From NCBI GenBank assembly GCA_026419775.2, contig JAOPGA020001493.1, positions 1 to 34,080 on the forward strand: a stretch of 34,080 bases of DNA, written 5' to 3'. This DNA is from Acrasis kona (Eukaryota; Heterolobosea; Eutetramitea; Acrasida; Acrasidae). Below, piece after piece: positions 1 to 20,644 of the stretch. Made by a program: the position numbers and the translations under genes. The first letter of the stretch is position 1. Each line of letters starts with the position of its first letter. The notes under the pieces were generated by a model, which was given only the letters and a program-made list of their open reading frames with translations, made no database searches and was not told the origin of the DNA.

Positions 1-142
1 GTAACGTGTTATCCATCAAAAATGTAATAATTTTTAATGAGGGGACAACATCCGGTTGTGACACTTACATTTTCGGCGATATTGCGGATAGTTTATCAAC
101 TGAATCCACCACTCACGTTCCTTAAAATTGTGAAAACGAAAC

Positions 143-1045
143 ATGGGAATCCCCGATCAGATCAGCGACTTCACTGGAAGATTAAAGTCAGACAAGGGAC
201 TAATCGTACGTGTGCTATTGGGATTACTATTTGTCATTGCATTGACCATTATGGGCTTTGCTTTGTTCATACGAACAGCAGTCTACAACAACCACCCAAC
301 AAAACACGCCATAGAGTACATTGGCTTCAATGATAAAAATTTCGAAGAGATTTTTCCAAGGATCTCTGTGTGCCCTGGTTACCACAATGACAGTACAACC
401 GGTCACTTTACCATGGGAGTAATCGATAAAGTTGAGTGCACATTCATCCAATTAATACCAGAAAGCCCAGATCACGTGGAGCCAGTACGTACTCCAGTCC
501 AGTCCACAGGTCCCGTCGAGCACACAATTGATTACCGCAAGTACACTAATTGCTTCGACATTAACATGGAGCGAACGAACTCGCCCAAGGTTGGATGGCA
601 AAATCCAGCCAGTCAAATTTCATGCAGGATTAATGCAAACTCCTGGGTACACGTTCATGTATACAATTTCAACCGCGATAAGCCCAGTCACTTGTTGAGC
701 CACTGGAACACTCTAAAGAATGGAGAGGCCACAAAGGTCAGCTTGAAATACGAAGAAGTTGCAAACACAAAGGGAGAGACCTGGGGATGGTATGCCATTG
801 ACAAGGAAGATGAAGAACTCAGATTCGGATCCAGAGGTCAAGCACCCGACCACTTGTACGTTTCATTCGGCTTTGACAGAATCTGGAAATCAAGATACCA
901 AGTATTCCACACCGCCCATCAATTCGGTGACATTACTTTCGGACAAATCGGTGGAATTTGCTTCTTGTTCTACATGTTATGGAAGTTGATTGCATGGTTT
1001 ACAACACTATTCGGAGGGGATCGTGCCGGTTATGAGAATGCCTAA
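143..1045 (+). CDS. Two-TM membrane protein, DEG/ENaC-like
   Basis: Single-exon gene of 300 residues starting at an ATG in an A-rich context (gaaacATG). A hydrophobic segment at about residues 21-44 is followed by a roughly 220-residue cysteine-containing region. A second hydrophobic segment at about 265-288 contains a GQIGG motif, and a short polar tail follows. Just after TM1 the sequence FPRISVCP resembles the FPxVTxCN motif that follows TM1 in DEG/ENaC/ASIC channels, and the Gly-Gly at the start of TM2 also recalls that family. With the usual two-TM topology the large loop would be extracellular and both termini cytosolic. It is much shorter than animal ENaC/ASIC subunits (500 or more residues) and lacks their full cysteine pattern. 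The family call is therefore a weak motif-level inference, and an unrelated two-TM family is possible. Its 3' end converges on the VPS9 gene. Confidence 0.6.
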   Translation: MGIPDQISDFTGRLKSDKGLIVRVLLGLLFVIALTIMGFALFIRTAVYNNHPTKHAIEYIGFNDKNFEEIFPRISVCPGYHNDSTTGHFTMGVIDKVECTFIQLIPESPDHVEPVRTPVQSTGPVEHTIDYRKYTNCFDINMERTNSPKVGWQNPASQISCRINANSWVHVHVYNFNRDKPSHLLSHWNTLKNGEATKVSLKYEEVANTKGETWGWYAIDKEDEELRFGSRGQAPDHLYVSFGFDRIWKSRYQVFHTAHQFGDITFGQIGGICFLFYMLWKLIAWFTTLFGGDRAGYENA

Positions 1046-5166: not shown

Positions 5167-5207
5167 TGTTGTGTGTATTGGGTTGACAAATCATTCCGCT
5201 TGCCGCA
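5167..5207. promoter_or_regulatory. 41-bp bidirectional promoter/5' region
   Basis: This is the whole interval between the divergent ATGs of nicalin (-) and the Ca2+-ATPase/CNG fusion (+). It must hold both 5' leaders, so transcription start sites must lie very close to, or inside, the opposite gene's 5' end. No clear TATA box is seen. Core promoter elements may extend into coding sequence. Confidence 0.5.
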
Positions 5208-8200
5208 ATGGAAATCACGGTAGAGAGGCTAGTGGATTTGAATACTCATAGAGACCATGAAAAGCTCAAGGGGATTGGCGGCATTACCGAAGTTGCTAGA
5301 ATGTTAGGCGCGAATTTAAAAGACGGTCTAGATGACAAAAATAAAGAATTTGAAGATCGGAAGAGGGAGTATGTTAATCGTTCAAATTGTATTAATTTTT
5401 TAGATTCGGAGAAAACATTTACCCAGAACCTGAACTTAAAAATCTATTTTACTTTATACAAGATGCACTTAAAGATGATACACTTAGGATTTTGATTATT
5501 TGCGCTTTAGTATCGTTATTGTTTGGAGTAATAGTCATTAGAGAACCCTATGGTTGGTTAGATTCAGCAGGAATCTTTTTTGCTGTTTTTCTTGTTGTAA
5601 CCGTATCAAGTTTTAATAACTACAGCAAAGAAAGACAATTCAGAGCACTCAACAGAATCAAGGAAAATCGAGATGTTAAAGTCATTCGATGCGGAACTCA
5701 AATCATTTTACCTTCATCTGCAATAGTCGTCGGCGATATCATACGCTTGGAAGCCGGAGATCATGTCCCAGCTGATGGTCTCGTAGTAGAAGCATTCAAC
5801 ATGACTTGCGACGAATCAAACCTAACAGGAGAGACAGAAAGTGAACCAAAGGACACAAGTAATAATGTTTTCTTAATATCAGGATCACAATTAACTGATG
5901 GGGTCGGTACGATGTTGGTTACTGCAGTAGGTATCAACACCGGTATTGGTCAAGCACTCTTAAAGATACAAGAAGAAGATAACCAACAAACACCTCTTGA
6001 GAAATCTCTCGAAAGAGTTGCAGATGCAATTGGTCATTGTGGTCTCACTGTTAGTGTTCTCATGTTTTTTTTGTTATTGTCCAAACGCTTCTTTACAATC
6101 TTTTTCGATCCAAATGGAAAATGGTCATTAGAATTTCTAGCCGCCGTCCTTCGTGATCTTGTCTTGTCCGTTTCTCTTGTAGTAGCCGCTGTTCCTGAAG
6201 GTCTCCCACTGGCAGTCACTATTTCATTAGCCTATTCTACTAAAAAGATGTTAAGAGACAACAATCTCGTAAGAAACATATCCGCATGCGAAACCATGGG
6301 GAGCGCCACAAGTACGTTACATTCATTTCCATCAAAGAAATTAACAATGACAGCAATATGTTCGGATAAAACAGGTACATTGACAACGAATCGAATGACA
6401 GTTTCTGAGGCATGGATCTGTGGAGCCAATTACAAAATACTAAAGAAAAGACCAAGCATACGAGAACAGTGTATGGACATTTTATGCGATGCAATCGCCA
6501 TCAACAGCACTGCAAACATTCTACAACAAGAAGAAGCGAGACCCATCTACATGGGAAATCCAACAGAGTGTGCCATGTTAATGATGTTGGATAAAAATTT
6601 TGGAACAAGTTACCAGGACTTGCGTGATTCCAAAAAATCACAAATCGCACAAATGTAACATTTTTCACACGACCCTTCATTTAACTTTTTTTCAGATTTA
6701 CATTCTCTTCGGAAAGAAAGTGCATGAGTACCATTTTACATTCAACAACATTACCGTCCACATCATTTCGCATCTACACAAAAGGTGCTTCGGAAATTGT
6801 TTTTAATTTGTGCGATCGATACCTAGATGGATCGGCAAATGTTCAAAAAATAGATGACCAACTCAAACAATACGTACACGATGAAATACACAGAATGGCA
6901 GCATCGGGTCTACGCACCATTTGTATAGCCTACAATGATTTCAAATCAAACGACATTACTCAAACATGTGCACAAGATTTGGAAAATCAATTAATTTGTT
7001 TGGCGATAATTGGCATCAAAGATCCACTAAGAGGCGAAGTACCCGATGCCATTCAACGGTGCATCAAGGCCGGTATCATTGTTCGAATGGTTACCGGAGA
7101 TAATCTCCTCACCGCAAAACAAATTGCGATCGAATGTGGAATTTACGATCCTGATGTTGGAATTGCAATGGAGGGAAAAGACTTTAGAGTGCTTCCCCCC
7201 TCTGAAATGATCAAAGTCGTGCCAAAGTTACAAGTATTAGCTCGCTCTACGCCTATCGATAAACACTTGTTGGTGACCACACTTAAAACAATGGGTCAGA
7301 TTGTAGCGGTGACTGGAGATGGTACAAATGATGCAGCTGCTCTAAAAGCCTCTAATGTGGGTTTGTCCATGGGTAAAAGTGGAACTGAAGTAGCGAAAGA
7401 AGCCTCTGATATAATCATCATGGATGATAACTTTACATCAATAGTCAAATCGGTTTTATGGGGAAGAAGCGTTTATGAAAACGTTAGAAAGTTTTTACAA
7501 TTCCAAATGACAATCAACATTGCAGCAGTGTTGATTACATTCATAGGTAGTGTATTCGAGAATGGATTTCCATTAACTGCTGTTCAATTGTTATGGATCA
7601 ATTTGATCATGGATACATTTGCAGCATTAGCGTTATCTACCGAACCACCCACCGAACAACTACTTGATAGAAATCCACATGGGATGGACGAACCTATCGT
7701 CAATAATAACATGTGGAAAAACATTATTGTACAAAGTTTACTACAACTTTGCATTTTACTACCATTAATCAATTATCATGAATATTTTTTTGGACCCATA
7801 GGAGATCCAATTCTTTCCGTAAGCAATAAGAAAAATGTACAAGATTATACTCTTGTTTTTAATGTTTTTGTTTTTTTTCAATTATTTAACATGTGGAATG
7901 CTCGTAAAATTAATAATGAATTAAACATTTTTAATAATATTGGAAAGAGTAAAATGTTTTTAATAATTTTTGCAAGTTGTACTTGTATACAAGTATTGAT
8001 TGTTGAATTTGGAGGTTATTTTGGATTTGGAACTCATGGATTAACTATGCAAGAATGGATCACTAGTATTTGTTTATCTTTTTTAGCAATACCAGTTGGT
8101 TTTATTTTACGTTTTGTGCCTGTGCCTAAACACTTATTTTTTGGATATGATGTGAGGGCAGAGTATTTTGATATTATTTATTGGATTAAAGTATTGTTAG

Positions 8201-10593
8201 CAAAGAATACTTTTCATCCAGATAGTCCCACTACTCAATTTTGGAAGTATGCAACCATGTTGTGTTGGTTTCATGTCTTATTTGTTGTTCCTTTTAAAAC
8301 TGGAATATTGTCCACTCGTCCTAATCACTTTTTATCAGTATGTGACTTTGTTGTTGACTTTGTGTTACTTGTGCATACTATTTTCTTAGCAAGTCGTTTT
8401 CAACATCATCATGGTGGTGAATTAGTAACTGATTATAATGAATTGAAAAGAAAATATAGAGAGAATGACTTTGTGGTAGATTTGATTTATAGCATACCTA
8501 TCGATAGCATGTTTACTGCTTATCGTACATTATTTGGAGCTGATGGTAGAGCTCATTTATTAATGGAGTTATTAAGGTTGCCAAGGTTAATTATGTTAAT
8601 GAGACCTTTGCAGTTGTTAAATAGAACGGCTGTAAGGATTAGCAGCATCATTAACCCTGCATACATTCACATGGCAAGCATGTTGCTTTTAATTGGTCTT
8701 GTAACTCATTGGGTAGCGTGTGCTTGGGTGTTGTTATCACAAGTACAAGGTTATGGTACCAATGAGTTTATCATTAGTCAAGAATGGTCCGATTCATCTC
8801 CATTGGAGATTTATGGATATGCTCTTTTTTGGAGCTTGTATAAAATGACGGGTGGTAATGTGGGTGGAACGCCTACAAATAGAGCAGAGAGAAGTTTTGA
8901 AATTTTTATGAGCTTTGCTGGACTCACCATTTATGCATCCATTATTGGTTCTTTGAGTAATTTGGTGATGGATCTTGCAGAGGATCAAAACCATATTCAA
9001 GAAAAGATGGAAAAAGTAAATGCATTTCTTCGTCGTAAGAAAATGCCTAATAAATTACAAAATCGTATTCGATCCTTGATGGAATACAAATTGCATCACT
9101 CTGACGATGCGGAGAGAGAAATTATCAATGATTTGCCCGATAGTTTAAAAACAGATATTGTTTTGCATTCTCATAAGAGTCTTATTTCTAGTGTTCCTTT
9201 TTTACAAAGATGTAATGAGAAATTTATAAGTGAGGTTATTCTAAAGTTAATTCCATTGGTGTATGGTCCAGAGGAGGTTATTTTCAATTACAATGAATTT
9301 GGAACCAGCATGTTCTTTATAATAAAGGGAGATGTAGAAATCCACTTACCTAGCGACCCTCCAAAAATTATTGATCTTCATACCGGAGATTTCTTCGGCG
9401 AAGTCGCTCTTTTAGATTCCAAATATAAAAGATCTGGAAGTGCAAGGACAACTTCTTTTTGTGAAATTCTTGAGCTCACAAAGGAAGATTTGGATTCCAT
9501 TATTGAAGATTATGGAGATAAGACCTTCTTTGAAGATTTGGATAAGGTTTTGATTGAGAGAAAGATACAAAGACCAAATGGTGCGCTTGCACGACAAATT
9601 CATAAAGAGACGAGCCCCGTCACTCCCAAAGATGTAATTAACAAGAAGGTCGAAATGTTGACTCCAATCATTACAAAACTCAATCAAGATGTTTCTGTTC
9701 CAAAAATCAGAACACCAGTAAGCGACAAGACTCCCACTACATTGAGAAGACCCATGTTGAAACGCGAAAACTCATCTTCTGGTTTAATTCCACCTGCATT
9801 GAAAAGAGAAAATTCTTCTTCATTTTTGAGCATTGTAACAGAAGCGCAGAGACGCCAACAACGCACAAGAAGTATGGATTCCTCACCAACTGGTTCTTCC
9901 GATGTACAATCAAGTTCCAACAACGTTCCACTCTCCGATCATGTAGAAAATCTTCAGAGGCAACTCAACCAAGCACTGTCCGACTTATCCGTCGCAAGAG
10001 ACCAAATCCTAAAGTTCACTTACCCAGAACAGAAGAACGACCAGATCCAAAACGAACTCAATGAGACTAGAAACGAATTGAGAATCGTTAAGAATGAGAT
10101 GATGAACTTTGAGTTGAAATCAAAATCTGATGAGCGCATGATTCATTGCTATCAGGAAGAATTGAGAGTTGGCCAACGAAAATTAGAGTTGACTGAAATG
10201 GAATTGAATCAGGTAATGACGGATCTATCTGATGCTAGAAGGAACGCAAAGGAAGCATGGTCAGAAACATCTGTTAGGATTCGCGACACCGAACACATCT
10301 CACTGGCAGTCAATGACATTCAGTTGCAGTTGGAGAAATTAGAACGGGAGACGATAAGTAAGGACGATCGCATACATCACTTGGAGTCAAAGTTACATGT
10401 GGAGGAACAAGAGAAGAAACTAAAAGTACATGTCGCTAGACATTTGCGTCATAAAGTTAGTGAGTTGAGAATGTTGCAATCTGAGATTAAGAACGATTCC
10501 ATAGAAATGATGTCAAGTATTAAGAATGATTTGACGGTTCTCTCCAAGAGTGGTTTTGGTACGCTGCTAGACAATGTATTAAAAAAAATATAG
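5208..10593 (+). CDS. Fusion: P2B Ca2+-ATPase (PMCA type) + cyclic-nucleotide-gated channel
   Basis: Four exons (5208-5368, 5404-6311, 6354-6654, 6696-10593) joined by introns of 35, 42 and 41 nt give 1756 codons (1755 aa). Residues ~1-960 are a full P-type ATPase: FGENIYPEPELKN at the N-terminus, LTGE in the actuator domain, PEGLPLAV in M4, ICSDKTGTLT with phosphoacceptor D361, KGASE, KDPLR, TGDN, TGDGTNDAAALK, and the PMCA-type stretch NFTSIVKSVLWGRSVY. It continues through M5-M10 and then, in the same open frame, into S1 (~971), S2, S3, an Arg-bearing S4, S5, a pore helix (~1164; filter region MTGGNVGGTP), S6, a C-linker and a cyclic-nucleotide-binding domain (~1285-1400). That domain has the phosphate-binding cassette FFGEVALL followed by RSGSAR. 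The tail is Ser-rich, then a coiled coil (~1540-1745). The pump would export Ca2+ and the channel would pass cations when cyclic nucleotide binds. The usual PMCA C-terminal regulatory tail is replaced by the channel. Both halves look intact. Confidence 0.9.
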
Positions 10594-14195: not shown

Positions 14196-17100
14196 ATGCG
14201 CGGGGTGCGAGTATTCTGTCGGTTTCGCCCTCTCCTTGACCATGAGAGGGTGGAGACAGCGGAGGAATGTGTGACGATGGACGAAACCAATGTGCATGTT
14301 ATGGTGAGTATCACTTAACCTTCCATTTTGTTCACATTGACAGAATCATGATACGTCTTTTGAATTCAATCACGTATTCGACTCCTCTGCAACTCAATCA
14401 CAAGTATATAATGTAATTGGATCATCAGTCGTGCAAGGTATAAAATCTTTGAACGCTCCCACTCAATTAGCGATTTAGATGTAAAAGATGGATATAATGC
14501 TACAATTCTTTGTTATGGGCAGGTCATGTCAGGAAAGACATACACAATGTTTGGACACGAGGACACAATCGACGAAGAATCTAAAGGACTTTCCAGAAGA
14601 ATTATCGACAAATTGTTTTTTTCTTTAGAAAATGACATTGAAATTATCCACTCCGTCTCCGTTCAATTCCTCGAGCTATACAAGGAAAAAATATATGATT
14701 TGATTGAGCGTTAGTTTTCAAAATTCCTAAATATTAACAACACACAGCCAGTAGGTCGCCTCATCTCAAAATAAAAGGAAGCACGGAGCTTGGTTTCCAC
14801 GTAACGGATGCCAGAACAGAGTACGTCACCACCGCGGAACAAGTATACGACATTGTGGAGACCGGATTCCGCAACAGCACATCAACAGACACTTCAAGTA
14901 AAAATTTTCCTTCACATTTGCTTACAAAATTTAACAGTTGCCAGTTCAGTAAGAGGACACACCATACTATTCCTTCAAGTTAACAGAAAACACAAATTAA
15001 ATCTATTTGATACCAAGAGCATCCTATTGCTCGCAGATCTCGCTGGATCAGAAATGGTGAAAAAAACAAGAGCCGAGGGAGGTATATTAGAGGAAGCAAA
15101 ATCAAATAACAAATCTCTACATCAATTAGGAAAAGTCATTGAAGCCATCACCAATCAAAAAACATTTATACCCTATCGAGATTCAAAACTCACTACTTTA
15201 TTGTGTGAAAGTTTAAAACGGAAAGCAAGAACAACATTAATCATCAATGCAAGTCCAAGTGTACTATGCGAGAGCGAAACCTTATCTGCACTACGTTTTG
15301 GAGCTAGATTTAAATTAATAAATGAAACAATCAAACAATCTAATCAACACACGCAAGATGACGCCAGATGTTTGCAACTCAAAAAGAAATTAGAAGAATC
15401 TAGAAAACAAAGAGCTTCAAAGAGCCAAATCAATCATACACACATCACAGTTACTCCCTCTGCTGAAAATAAGACCATTATAGGGTCTATAAGATTGGAG
15501 CTTTCCCATATGAAACAGCGCCTAAAGGTGCAGGATATAAGAAAGTCACCAACTAACAAAATTGATAATTTGGATTATCATAGAGAAATGTTAAATAGAA
15601 TAGAATTACTATTAGAAATGAAAGATAGAAGTGATCAAGAAATAGAAGACTTGAATAAAAGAATAATGAAAAATTTAAATGATATGGGAGCAATGAAGAG
15701 AAGAGAATGGGAGCAAAATAATAAAGTAAAAAGACTAAAAATTGAAAAAGCAAATTTAATAAAAGATCATGAGTCAAATGTAAAATCAATTCAACGCTCT
15801 TTTCAAGAAGAAATCAATGAATTGAGCTGTAATCAGCAAATAAAAGCTATGGAAGCTTTGATTCATGGAGAGCGCTCTGAAATTGAACTTGAAGAAAAGA
15901 TTCAACATCAAGTTACAAAAATTAGAGAGCAAACTGAAAAAGAGAAACATTATATATTTAACCAAATGCTTGATGAGATGCAAAAGTTAAGACAACAAAA
16001 TACTTTGGATTTGTCTTTACTTCAGGAGCGCATCATGAATGAGAGAATTGCTTTTAGCAGCCAGCATGAAGCCGAGCTGCTATATTTGAGAGATGAACAT
16101 TCTAATGAGCTTTTAAAACTCCATAAGCAGATAGCTAGTTTAAATAATATAATATTTGAAAAGGATGCGGAGCTATTGGCACTACGCTCCAAAAATAGTG
16201 CTCCAAAAATATTCCAAAACATTCCCATAAGAGTTGTAAAGAAGTGGAATATTCAAGATTTGTCTTGCTTTGTACAACTAAATGATGTAATAAATACACC
16301 GGCTCATCAGAGATCTCAGATGATTGCCAAATCTATTTTAGACCGTTGTAATATAAATAATCTAAATGATGTTTTTGTTTGGGACTCTGAGGATAATTGC
16401 ATAGATGAACTGAATGATGACCTTTTGGTTGATTCTTTGATAAAGAATCCAGAGTTGGTCATTACAAAGGATGGAGAACGTCTTTATAAAAAATTGTTGC
16501 TGAACATATCCGGTTCAACTTCTTGTTTAATTGAATTAAAGGTTGATCCGGAGGTGGTATGTAGCGATGACATTAAACAAAGCATCAGACAAGTTTTAAT
16601 TGATCAAGACATCTCCTGGAGTGATTTCATTTTGTTTGATACCAATGGTAACAGGATTATCGAGAATGCTGGAAGATTTAATGTTAGATCTGGTCAACAA
16701 ATTCTTGTCACACCAAAGTCAAAAACAATTGATTTGGACCTTCAGTGTGGCTCTCATATTAAGTTTTATGATTGTCCGCAATGGGACGCACCAGAAAAAC
16801 AAACATTCCGTGGGCAGTCATTGTTCTTGTGTAATTTGTATATATTGAGTAATGAAGTTGTTGTTACAGATGAAGTGTTGATGGAGTGGAAATCAATTTT
16901 AAATCCTGCTGCGGCGATTACTCTGCGTGAGTTTATCAATGATAATGGAAAATTTGATTTTGAGAAGTCTGTAATCTTGTCTCATAGTTTTTATCATAAA
17001 CTACTTGTGTGTAATCCACATATTCCTAAAAATGTTCTTTTTGAAAATTGCACACCCTTGTTCCACCAACTCAAATACGGATCTTCAGATGAGTCCATTG

Positions 17101-17891
17101 AGGATGGTTGTTTTGGAGTTGTCGGAATCATGAATGTCATTGCTAAAAATAGGCCTTGTGTCATTGATGATATTACAAAAAATCTATATGCCGTCTTTAC
17201 TCATCGTGTTCCTAATGTTGTTGGAATGATCAAGCTTTTGTATCCTTCAATTAGAACATATGATTCTGTTGACATTGAAGATTTGACAGAGTTGTTCGCC
17301 AGCAAGTTAGAATTAGAACAAGATAATTTGAAATCACAGATCAGGATTATTGGTAATGCCAATGAATCCGTCATGGTGTGTGTGGATACTAGTGGTAGTA
17401 TGAGCGTCTCCTTTGGCGAACAGAAGAGAATAGACTACGCCAAAATGTTCTTCCAAAAACTCATTGACTTGACCTACGAGAGTGGAAGAGCTCTTCAAGT
17501 GGGTTTAATATCTTTCAATTCAAATGCTGATTATATTTGTAACATTACGCGGGTGTACAAGAGGTATAGAAGAGCACTAAGCGATATAAAACCATCTGGC
17601 GGGACAGATCTCATAGGTGCTTTGAAAACGTCTTACTCTGAGCTCAGTAGCGAGAAGTGTAGATTTACAACAAAAAGAATTGTTGTATTGACCGACGGTG
17701 ACGTAAGCACAAGAGGTGGGGACGATCTGATGAATAAAATCAAATGCGGAAACATTCGGGTGGATATGCTTCAGATTGGCACCAATAGAGGAGCATGGAA
17801 GGCGCATTGTCAGGACAGTGGCGGTTGTTTCATAGAAGTTTCCAGAGATGACGAAATGGAATCTCTACTAAAAAGCATAGAATTGAAATAA
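14196..17891 (+). CDS. Kinesin motor with coiled coil and C-terminal vWA domain
   Basis: Five exons (14196-14303, 14344-14437, 14479-14709, 14748-14897, 14938-17891) with introns of 40, 41, 38 and 40 nt give 1179 codons (1178 aa). The start VRVFCRFRPL is the typical first strand of a kinesin motor. The P-loop reads GQVMSGKT (81-88) instead of GQTGSGKT. Switch I reads SSVRGH (197-202) instead of SSRSH. Switch II DLAGSE (228-233) and IPYRDSKLTTLL are canonical. The motor ends near residue 320 and a long charged coiled coil runs to ~620. A region of ~380 residues with no domain I recognise follows. From ~1005 to the end is a von Willebrand A domain with an intact MIDAS: DTSGSMS from D1011, GGTDL, and LTDGD. 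The last exon is continuous from switch I to the vWA domain, so the fusion does not rest on splice prediction. All four introns lie in the first sixth of the coding sequence. Confidence 0.88.
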
Positions 17892-20642: not shown

Positions 20643-20644
20643 TT
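20639..20644 (-). terminator. Poly(A) signal overlapping the polycystin-1-like stop
   Basis: Minus-strand AATAAA at 20644-20639 overlaps the TAA stop (20645-20643), which is followed by a second in-frame TAA. Confidence 0.5.

Follow-up and report, generated by a model that had tools for sequence, protein, structure and literature searches.

Introduction

Channels and pumps that shape one Ca2+ signal normally meet by co-localisation only. In KdpFABC, a P-type ATPase subunit works with a channel-like subunit; the two are separate polypeptides that serve K+ uptake, and the channel-like part is not of the cyclic-nucleotide-gated (CNG) kind. Within a single polypeptide, the sperm Na+/H+ exchanger SLC9C1 carries a sensor without an S5-S6 pore. 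In this work, we describe a gene of the social amoeba Acrasis kona (Heterolobosea) in which the reading frame of a P2B (plasma-membrane, PMCA-type) Ca2+-ATPase continues into that of a CNG-type channel. The gene lies on the plus strand of contig JAOPGA020001493.1, within a stretch of 34,080 nucleotides (positions 1 to 34,080, hereafter the window) that contains no N bases.

The roles of the P2B pump motifs and Ca2+-site residues (PEGLP, the Asn of membrane segment M5, and the Asp of M6) are known from the family. P2B pumps also possess a calmodulin-binding autoinhibitory tail, which is C-terminal in animals and N-terminal in plants. In the channels, an Arg-Thr pair of the cyclic-nucleotide-binding domain (cNBD) makes the phosphate contact, and classical CNG alpha subunits carry a glutamate in the filter, which some CNG beta subunits lack.

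The sequence is already public as an unremarked annotation, AKO1_009094, named in databases either 'hypothetical protein' or 'Calcium-transporting ATPase'; what is new here is the recognition of the fusion. No mention of AKO1_009094 was found in the open PMC literature, nor, judged by titles and abstract openings among the entries listed, was a PMCA-CNG fusion.

Gene Structure and the Open Frame

The gene runs from the ATG at 5208 to a stop codon ending at 10593 and comprises four exons. Removal of three GT-AG introns (35, 42, and 41 nt) gives 1755 residues from that ATG, and the last exon holds both the greater part of the pump and the whole channel:

5208..5368, plus strand: exon 1, with the start codon and the pump N-terminus; an in-frame stop lies upstream at 5184, and the deposited protein starts identically
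5369..5403, plus strand: intron 1, 35 nt, GT-AG, also in the deposited model
5404..6311, plus strand: exon 2, opening portion of the pump, carrying the A-domain (PF00122, 129.1 bits) and PEGLP (residue 318)
6312..6353, plus strand: intron 2, 42 nt, in frame, also in the deposited model; if kept in the mRNA, it would split the TTICSDKTGT motif
6354..6654, plus strand: exon 3, with the D361 phosphorylation site (codon 6365-6367) and the start of the N-domain
6655..6695, plus strand: intron 3, 41 nt, also in the deposited model
6696..10593, plus strand: exon 4, one open frame with the remaining pump, linker, channel, helical tail, and stop codon

An earlier note on this DNA had read 6696-10593 as one uninterrupted exon of a 1755-residue protein that joins a P2B pump to a CNG-type channel, and this reading holds. 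The frame is free of stops from 6685 to 10593 (1302 aa), and exon 4 starts at 6696. The pump/channel frame has no stop at about 8100-8250, with 0 stops in the 200 codons of 7900-8499, while the other two forward frames contain 14 and 25. In a first-order Markov simulation of 7760-8259, a 166-codon frame stayed open in 0 of 20,000 trials, and an open frame arising by chance is rejected for the exon as a whole. Over 8119-8205, within the junction, the pump/channel frame is the only one of the six without a stop and has the highest codon score (8.3 bits). Pfam places two domains in this one frame, Cation_ATPase_C with 137.5 bits and cNMP_binding with 51.3 bits. The continuous frame, the completeness of both halves, and the kept catalytic, Ca2+-site, and nucleotide-contact residues can be read directly from the sequence, and translation as one chain is very probable.

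From M8 to the junction (7846-8205), third-position GC is low, at 0.12 and 0.20 in 60-codon windows. This is mildly unusual at most, because windows across the gene range from 0.12 to 0.50 and include two further low values elsewhere (0.17 and 0.18). A tandem-repeat scan found nothing. A promoter/terminator scan gave 7 promoter-like sites (4.5 expected) and no terminator; the scan is built on bacterial signals, and its output was left aside.

The Pump Half

Residues 1 to about 935 constitute, as judged by homology, a complete P2B calcium pump. The deposited AKO1_009094 (P0001 in our protein set) scores 897 bits against TIGR01517, the PMCA-type family with a cut-off of 507.05, and the exon-4 part of the pump reaches 540.5 bits by itself, extending to position 881 of 882. 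The closest relatives with solved structures are PMCA2 (8.4e-130), PMCA1, and the plant plasma-membrane-type calcium ATPase 8. The pump motifs are in place: TGE195, PEGLP318, D361 in DKTGTLTTN, KGASE486, TGDGTND663, and the stretches with the M5 Asn and M6 Asp. D361 and TGDGTND had been named beforehand as kept residues, correctly so, and with the exon-4 part aligned to PMCA2 the catalytic and Ca2+-site residues of a P2B Ca2+-ATPase are present. The membrane domain of this half is as follows:

7567..8115, plus strand: Cation_ATPase_C domain, M5-M10 (PF00689, 137.5 bits)

It had also been proposed that the channel module took the place of the usual calmodulin tail, which is doubtful. The tails of four Acrasis paralogue pumps vary: one ends right after M10, others extend about 55 and about 35 residues, and one (C731) has a short basic tail. 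The linker of the fusion gave no sign of a calmodulin-like segment in a simple, weak test of charge and hydrophobic moment (a net charge between -2 and +1 and a moment no higher than 0.27), and only 54 residues precede FGENIYPEP at the N-terminus. Such a replacement is at most a possibility. The tail is a regulatory element and does not define the fold.

The Channel Half

From about residue 957-963 onward, the protein is, by the same kind of comparison, a complete CNG-type channel. The channel part alone matches Ion_trans (PF00520, 62.8 bits) and cNMP_binding (PF00027, 53.1 bits), and six segments, the C-linker, and the cNBD lie in one frame, as is typical of CNG-type channels. The closest channel sequences with solved structures are 5v4s (1.4e-45), which we take to be the channel LliK, followed by SthK, CNGA3, CNGA1, and HCN; the alignment with 5v4s spans positions 38-463. 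The features of this half are the following:

8236..8985, plus strand: channel segments S1-S6 (Ion_trans, PF00520, 62.8 bits for the channel part alone), with the filter GGNVGGTP at 8851-8874
9259..9513, plus strand: cNBD (PF00027, 51.3 bits), with FFGEVALL from 9391 and the R1374 codon at 9445-9447
9946..10533, plus strand: C-terminal charged, probably helical tail, possibly a coiled coil, matching no Pfam family

An S4-like stretch, RLPRLIMLMRPLQLLNRTAVR, is present. The cNBD residues singled out earlier (FGEVALL and an Arg) were found as FFGEVALL at residue 1356 and R1374-T1375 in ARTTSF, so that both FGE and the phosphate-contact Arg are kept. The coiled coil that had been placed behind them received moderate support only, heptad periodicity standing out (z of 2.5 and 2.2) in 2 of the 11 windows over residues 1401-1736. 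A hydropathy scan alone does not resolve 16 segments, since M8, S3, and S4 fall below its threshold, which is why the count of 10 + 6 membrane segments rests on homology.

The Junction and the Unfused Paralogues

The same genome encodes unfused versions of both halves, and because of this the fusion can be read as a whole pump joined to a whole channel. Unfused pump paralogues are about 60% identical to the fused pump: one on C606 ends about 55 residues past M10, and one on C36 (136 kb) ends just past M10, segments of the C606 pump ranging from 48 to 60% identity. The unfused channel paralogue, AKO1_007944 (on C237), has 485 residues and 43-44% identity to the fused channel; its start, MKENTTILLPNSP, corresponds in the alignment to LLAKNTFHPDSP of the fusion. 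The 9.9 kb around AKO1_007944 gave no pump match, and C237 does not occur among the Cation_ATPase_C matches listed for the genome. The paralogues thus bound the junction:

8113..8220, plus strand: junction, with the pump-like FVPVPKHLFFGYD (8113-8151), residues 943-956 (8152-8193), and LLAKNTFHP (8194-8220); no Met

FVPVPKHLFFGYD aligns with the C606 pump through residue 942, and residues 943-956 match neither parent. LLAKNT is weakly like AKO1_007944, and the clear match to the channel relatives begins at TFHP. The linker that resembles neither the pump nor the channel paralogue is therefore about 14-20 residues long, about 37 residues separating M10 and S1. From M908 of M10 to M978 of S1 no further Met occurs, and a separate in-frame channel start there was accordingly rejected. 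The pump C-terminus and the channel N-terminus are both cytosolic in their families, which supports the earlier view that the topologies are compatible.

In a search of the Acrasis kona genome, the channel DNA was single copy. Contig C775 is the only one to appear in both genome lists of domain matches, which are lower bounds (at least 20 matches for Cation_ATPase_C and at least 15 for cNMP-binding). A close pump copy on C632 (L024, C632:15784-16184) proved to be a fragment with a broken frame that resembles the C606-type calcium pump and gives no channel match; it is apparently a pseudogene.

The Deposited Gene Model

AKO1_009094 has 1705 aa, matches our reading at 100% identity, and also contains the pump-channel fusion. 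It differs from the 1755-residue protein only in being shorter by 43 and 7 residues net, through two extra predicted introns:

7819..7947, plus strand: extra intron of the deposited model; 129 nt coding for a conserved pump segment, YTLVFNVFVFFQLFNMWNARKINNE; probably coding
8066..8086, plus strand: extra intron of the deposited model; 21 nt coding for 7 residues of M10, aligned without gaps to the paralogues and PMCA2

Both were judged wrong, because they remove residues aligned in two paralogue pumps and in PMCA2 and because the Cation_ATPase_C score falls from 137.5 bits with both segments read through to 85.8 bits in the deposited protein. The codon score over the 21-nt piece is uninformative. 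These introns are probably gene-model errors, alternative splicing being the other possibility. The 129-nt intron also exceeds the range of 9-95 bp stated for Acrasis kona introns in the accessible text of PMC11589745. According to the same text, the annotation came from a pipeline of MAKER, PASA, RNA-seq, and manual curation (PMC11589745). The deposited model retains the fusion as one gene.

Relatives and the Search for a Second Fusion

Closest to the fused channel, among the relatives found, come AKO1_007944 and the environmental proteins P0024 and P0002. P0024 (601 aa, 47% identity) carries an RNA-recognition motif (RRM domain) in front of its channel, and no Met occurs between that motif and S1; either channels of this family tend to acquire N-terminal partners, or the P0024 gene call may have merged two genes. 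P0002 (1190 aa, 43% identity) has a DIL domain behind its channel, an unusual partner. Both have Lys at the phosphate-contact position of the cNBD, where AKO1_007944 has Arg, as does the fused channel. In a channel tree of nine rows, built without the other protein-search hits and the other cNMP matches of the own genome, these four channels form one clade (support 100/99), in which the sister of the fused member is an open fork and the fused branch is the longest (0.71 vs 0.45-0.53). The sister of the fused pump is likewise an open fork in a pump tree of nine rows, which left out C469 (P2B-like), more distant P-type pumps, and the partial L043.

The earlier note had suggested looking for the same architecture in related genomes. 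The search was run on protein sets and returned no fusion beyond AKO1_009094, at limited sensitivity. In the first search, 11 of 4674 candidates (965-3071 aa) passed, and only P0001 had both the pump and cNMP domains; the second scored the best 7999 candidates, and the third gave 4 matches among 7480. P0002, although within the length range, was missed by the second and third searches, and P0024 and P0025 by the second. No second pump-channel fusion was found in these protein searches, which lose true relatives, and genomes of other eukaryotes were not searched directly.

Possible Function and Alternative Explanations

The explanation that we place first is a genuine gene fusion whose two halves are most likely both active, with a channel that would be tetrameric and biased by cAMP or cGMP and a tethered pump that would export Ca2+; we favor it tentatively, somewhat short of an even chance. 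In this reading, the P2B pump frame passes without a stop into a CNG-type channel whose beginning would lie close to the site of a former start codon, and one protein of 1755 residues results. The channel half would assemble, like its relatives, as a tetramer, possibly a heterotetramer that perhaps includes the unfused AKO1_007944. Each pore would then have between one and four pumps beside it, the lower numbers applying to co-assembly with AKO1_007944. cAMP or cGMP would open or bias the channel, the tethered pump would export Ca2+ at the same spot, and a cyclic-nucleotide signal would become a brief, local Ca2+/cation signal. The conducting pore, tetramerisation, and pump-channel coupling are what we infer. 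That the protein forms an obligate influx/efflux unit, a cyclic-nucleotide-gated cation pore with its own Ca2+ pumps making such brief local signals, is a proposal that we hold with slightly less confidence.

Several observations weigh against a working pump-channel. The filter, GGNVGGTP, lacks an acidic residue, with Gly (by eye) at the place of the CNG alpha Glu, and it departs from the filters of the three nearest relatives (ADTGTGSP, SDTGTGAP, and SDTGTGPP; [AS]DTGTG[SAP]P). Conduction and Ca2+ permeability are uncertain for this reason, and self-limiting Ca2+ entry is put forward as a hypothesis, since the CNG alpha glutamate is absent. The same absence is why we speak of a CNG-type channel and not of a CNG alpha subunit; it matters for Ca2+ permeation rather more than for family membership. 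When the whole exon-4 frame or the deposited protein was scanned, Ion_trans was not reported, the cNMP domain being the only channel domain there. Steric crowding could be a problem for a tetramer that carries four pumps. A cryptic GT-AG pair at 8163-8221 (59 nt) would give a pump-only product ending in GYDVRAE. In 9.4% of the Markov simulations, chance alone kept a linker-sized stretch of 30 codons open, so the openness of the linker alone is not decisive. A further point is the occurrence in a single species, no conserved fusion having been found in the protein searches.

The alternative that survives best is the same fusion with a channel half that does not conduct and that would act as a voltage and cyclic-nucleotide sensor and oligomerisation scaffold regulating the Ca2+ pump. 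We place it not far behind the working pump-channel. SLC9C1, an exchanger gated by a voltage-sensing domain and a CNBD, is its precedent in the accessible text of PMC6052114. The filter of the fused channel is one residue shorter than those of its close relatives and has lost their Asp, and its branch is the longest of the four. Against this, S5, the pore region, and S6 are retained within the 62.8-bit Ion_trans match; sensors of the SLC9C1 type keep less of S5-pore-S6, and GGNVGGTP equals, by eye, the CNG filter in length.

It is unlikely that the locus instead yields two products, a pump-only form made by cryptic splicing of 8163-8221 plus the fusion or a channel form, with the fusion minor or noise. 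The 59-nt pair falls within the published intron range and sets the pump stop right after GYDVRAE, and the Acrasis authors, working with a gene-compact genome, applied jaccard_clip against fused transcripts (accessible text of PMC11589745). The codon score over 8161-8205 does not by itself favor the fusion frame (4.1, against 4.4 for a frame with two stops). The wider interval 8119-8205, in contrast, scores as coding, the acceptor at 8221 would delete TFHP, which is aligned in two channel relatives, and a channel form would lack an in-frame start codon between M10 and S1.

Last comes an assembly or sequencing artefact. Homopolymer indels are a known error type of 454 data, and a six-T run lies at 8137-8142 with a next-frame stop at 8153. 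That a chimeric contig or a stop-removing indel joined two genes in this hybrid 454/Illumina assembly (MIRA + SSPACE, per the accessible text of PMC11589745), where one contig carries the join, is very improbable: the window has no N, the two parts meet in frame where a boundary makes biological sense, the genome search found no near-identical second copy of either side (pump paralogues are about 70% alike), and, even if an indel had stopped the pump, neither of the other forward frames offers a start codon that opens into the channel. The working pump-channel thus stands first, the silent channel module second, separate products third, and an artefact last, what remains being left to readings not listed here.

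Other Features of the Window

Four further open frames of the window were observed. On the plus strand, 14805-17891 is a single open frame with a piece of a kinesin motor and a von Willebrand A domain, a second unusual combination. On the minus strand, 20643-26366 is an open frame of 1907 residues with REJ and GPS domains, whose product presumably resembles polycystin-1-like proteins. The plus-strand frame at 29791-31236 resembles a six-segment ion channel by eye and matches no Pfam family at E 0.01, and that at 134-1045 (plus strand) weakly matches the amiloride-sensitive sodium channel family, its 16.4 bits falling below the cut-off of 23.6.

Comparison with Known Systems

In the Acrasis study, calcium was put forward as a candidate signal for aggregation, and two plasma-membrane calcium pumps were found to be up-regulated; AKO1_009094 is not named in the accessible main text (PMC11589745).

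With P2B Ca2+-ATPases, the fusion shares a pump half that scores above the TIGR01517 cut-off; it differs from them in having no recognised calmodulin-binding tail and a whole channel after M10. With the CNG/HCN/KCNH superfamily, it shares S1-S6 and a cNBD with Arg-Thr at the phosphate-contact position, whereas its non-acidic filter GGNVGGTP and an N-terminus joined to a pump set it apart. SLC9C1 and the alveolate ATPase-cyclases are the nearest precedents. SLC9C1, as described in the accessible text of PMC6052114, likewise combines a transporter with a voltage-sensor/cyclic-nucleotide module, in an architecture that is only analogous; in contrast to the fusion, it is an exchanger and not a P-type pump. 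The alveolate P4-ATPase-guanylate cyclase is also a protist P-type ATPase fused to a cyclic-nucleotide module, and it differs in that its ATPase is lipid-flippase-like, its partner is an enzyme making cGMP, and it contains no channel (accessible text of PMC6592433). If the reading presented here is true, a primary-active Ca2+ pump is added to the few transporters known to be joined to a channel-type or cyclic-nucleotide module, and the covalent one-to-one pairing of pump and channel would provide a natural case for testing at what distance a pump still limits a Ca2+ microdomain.

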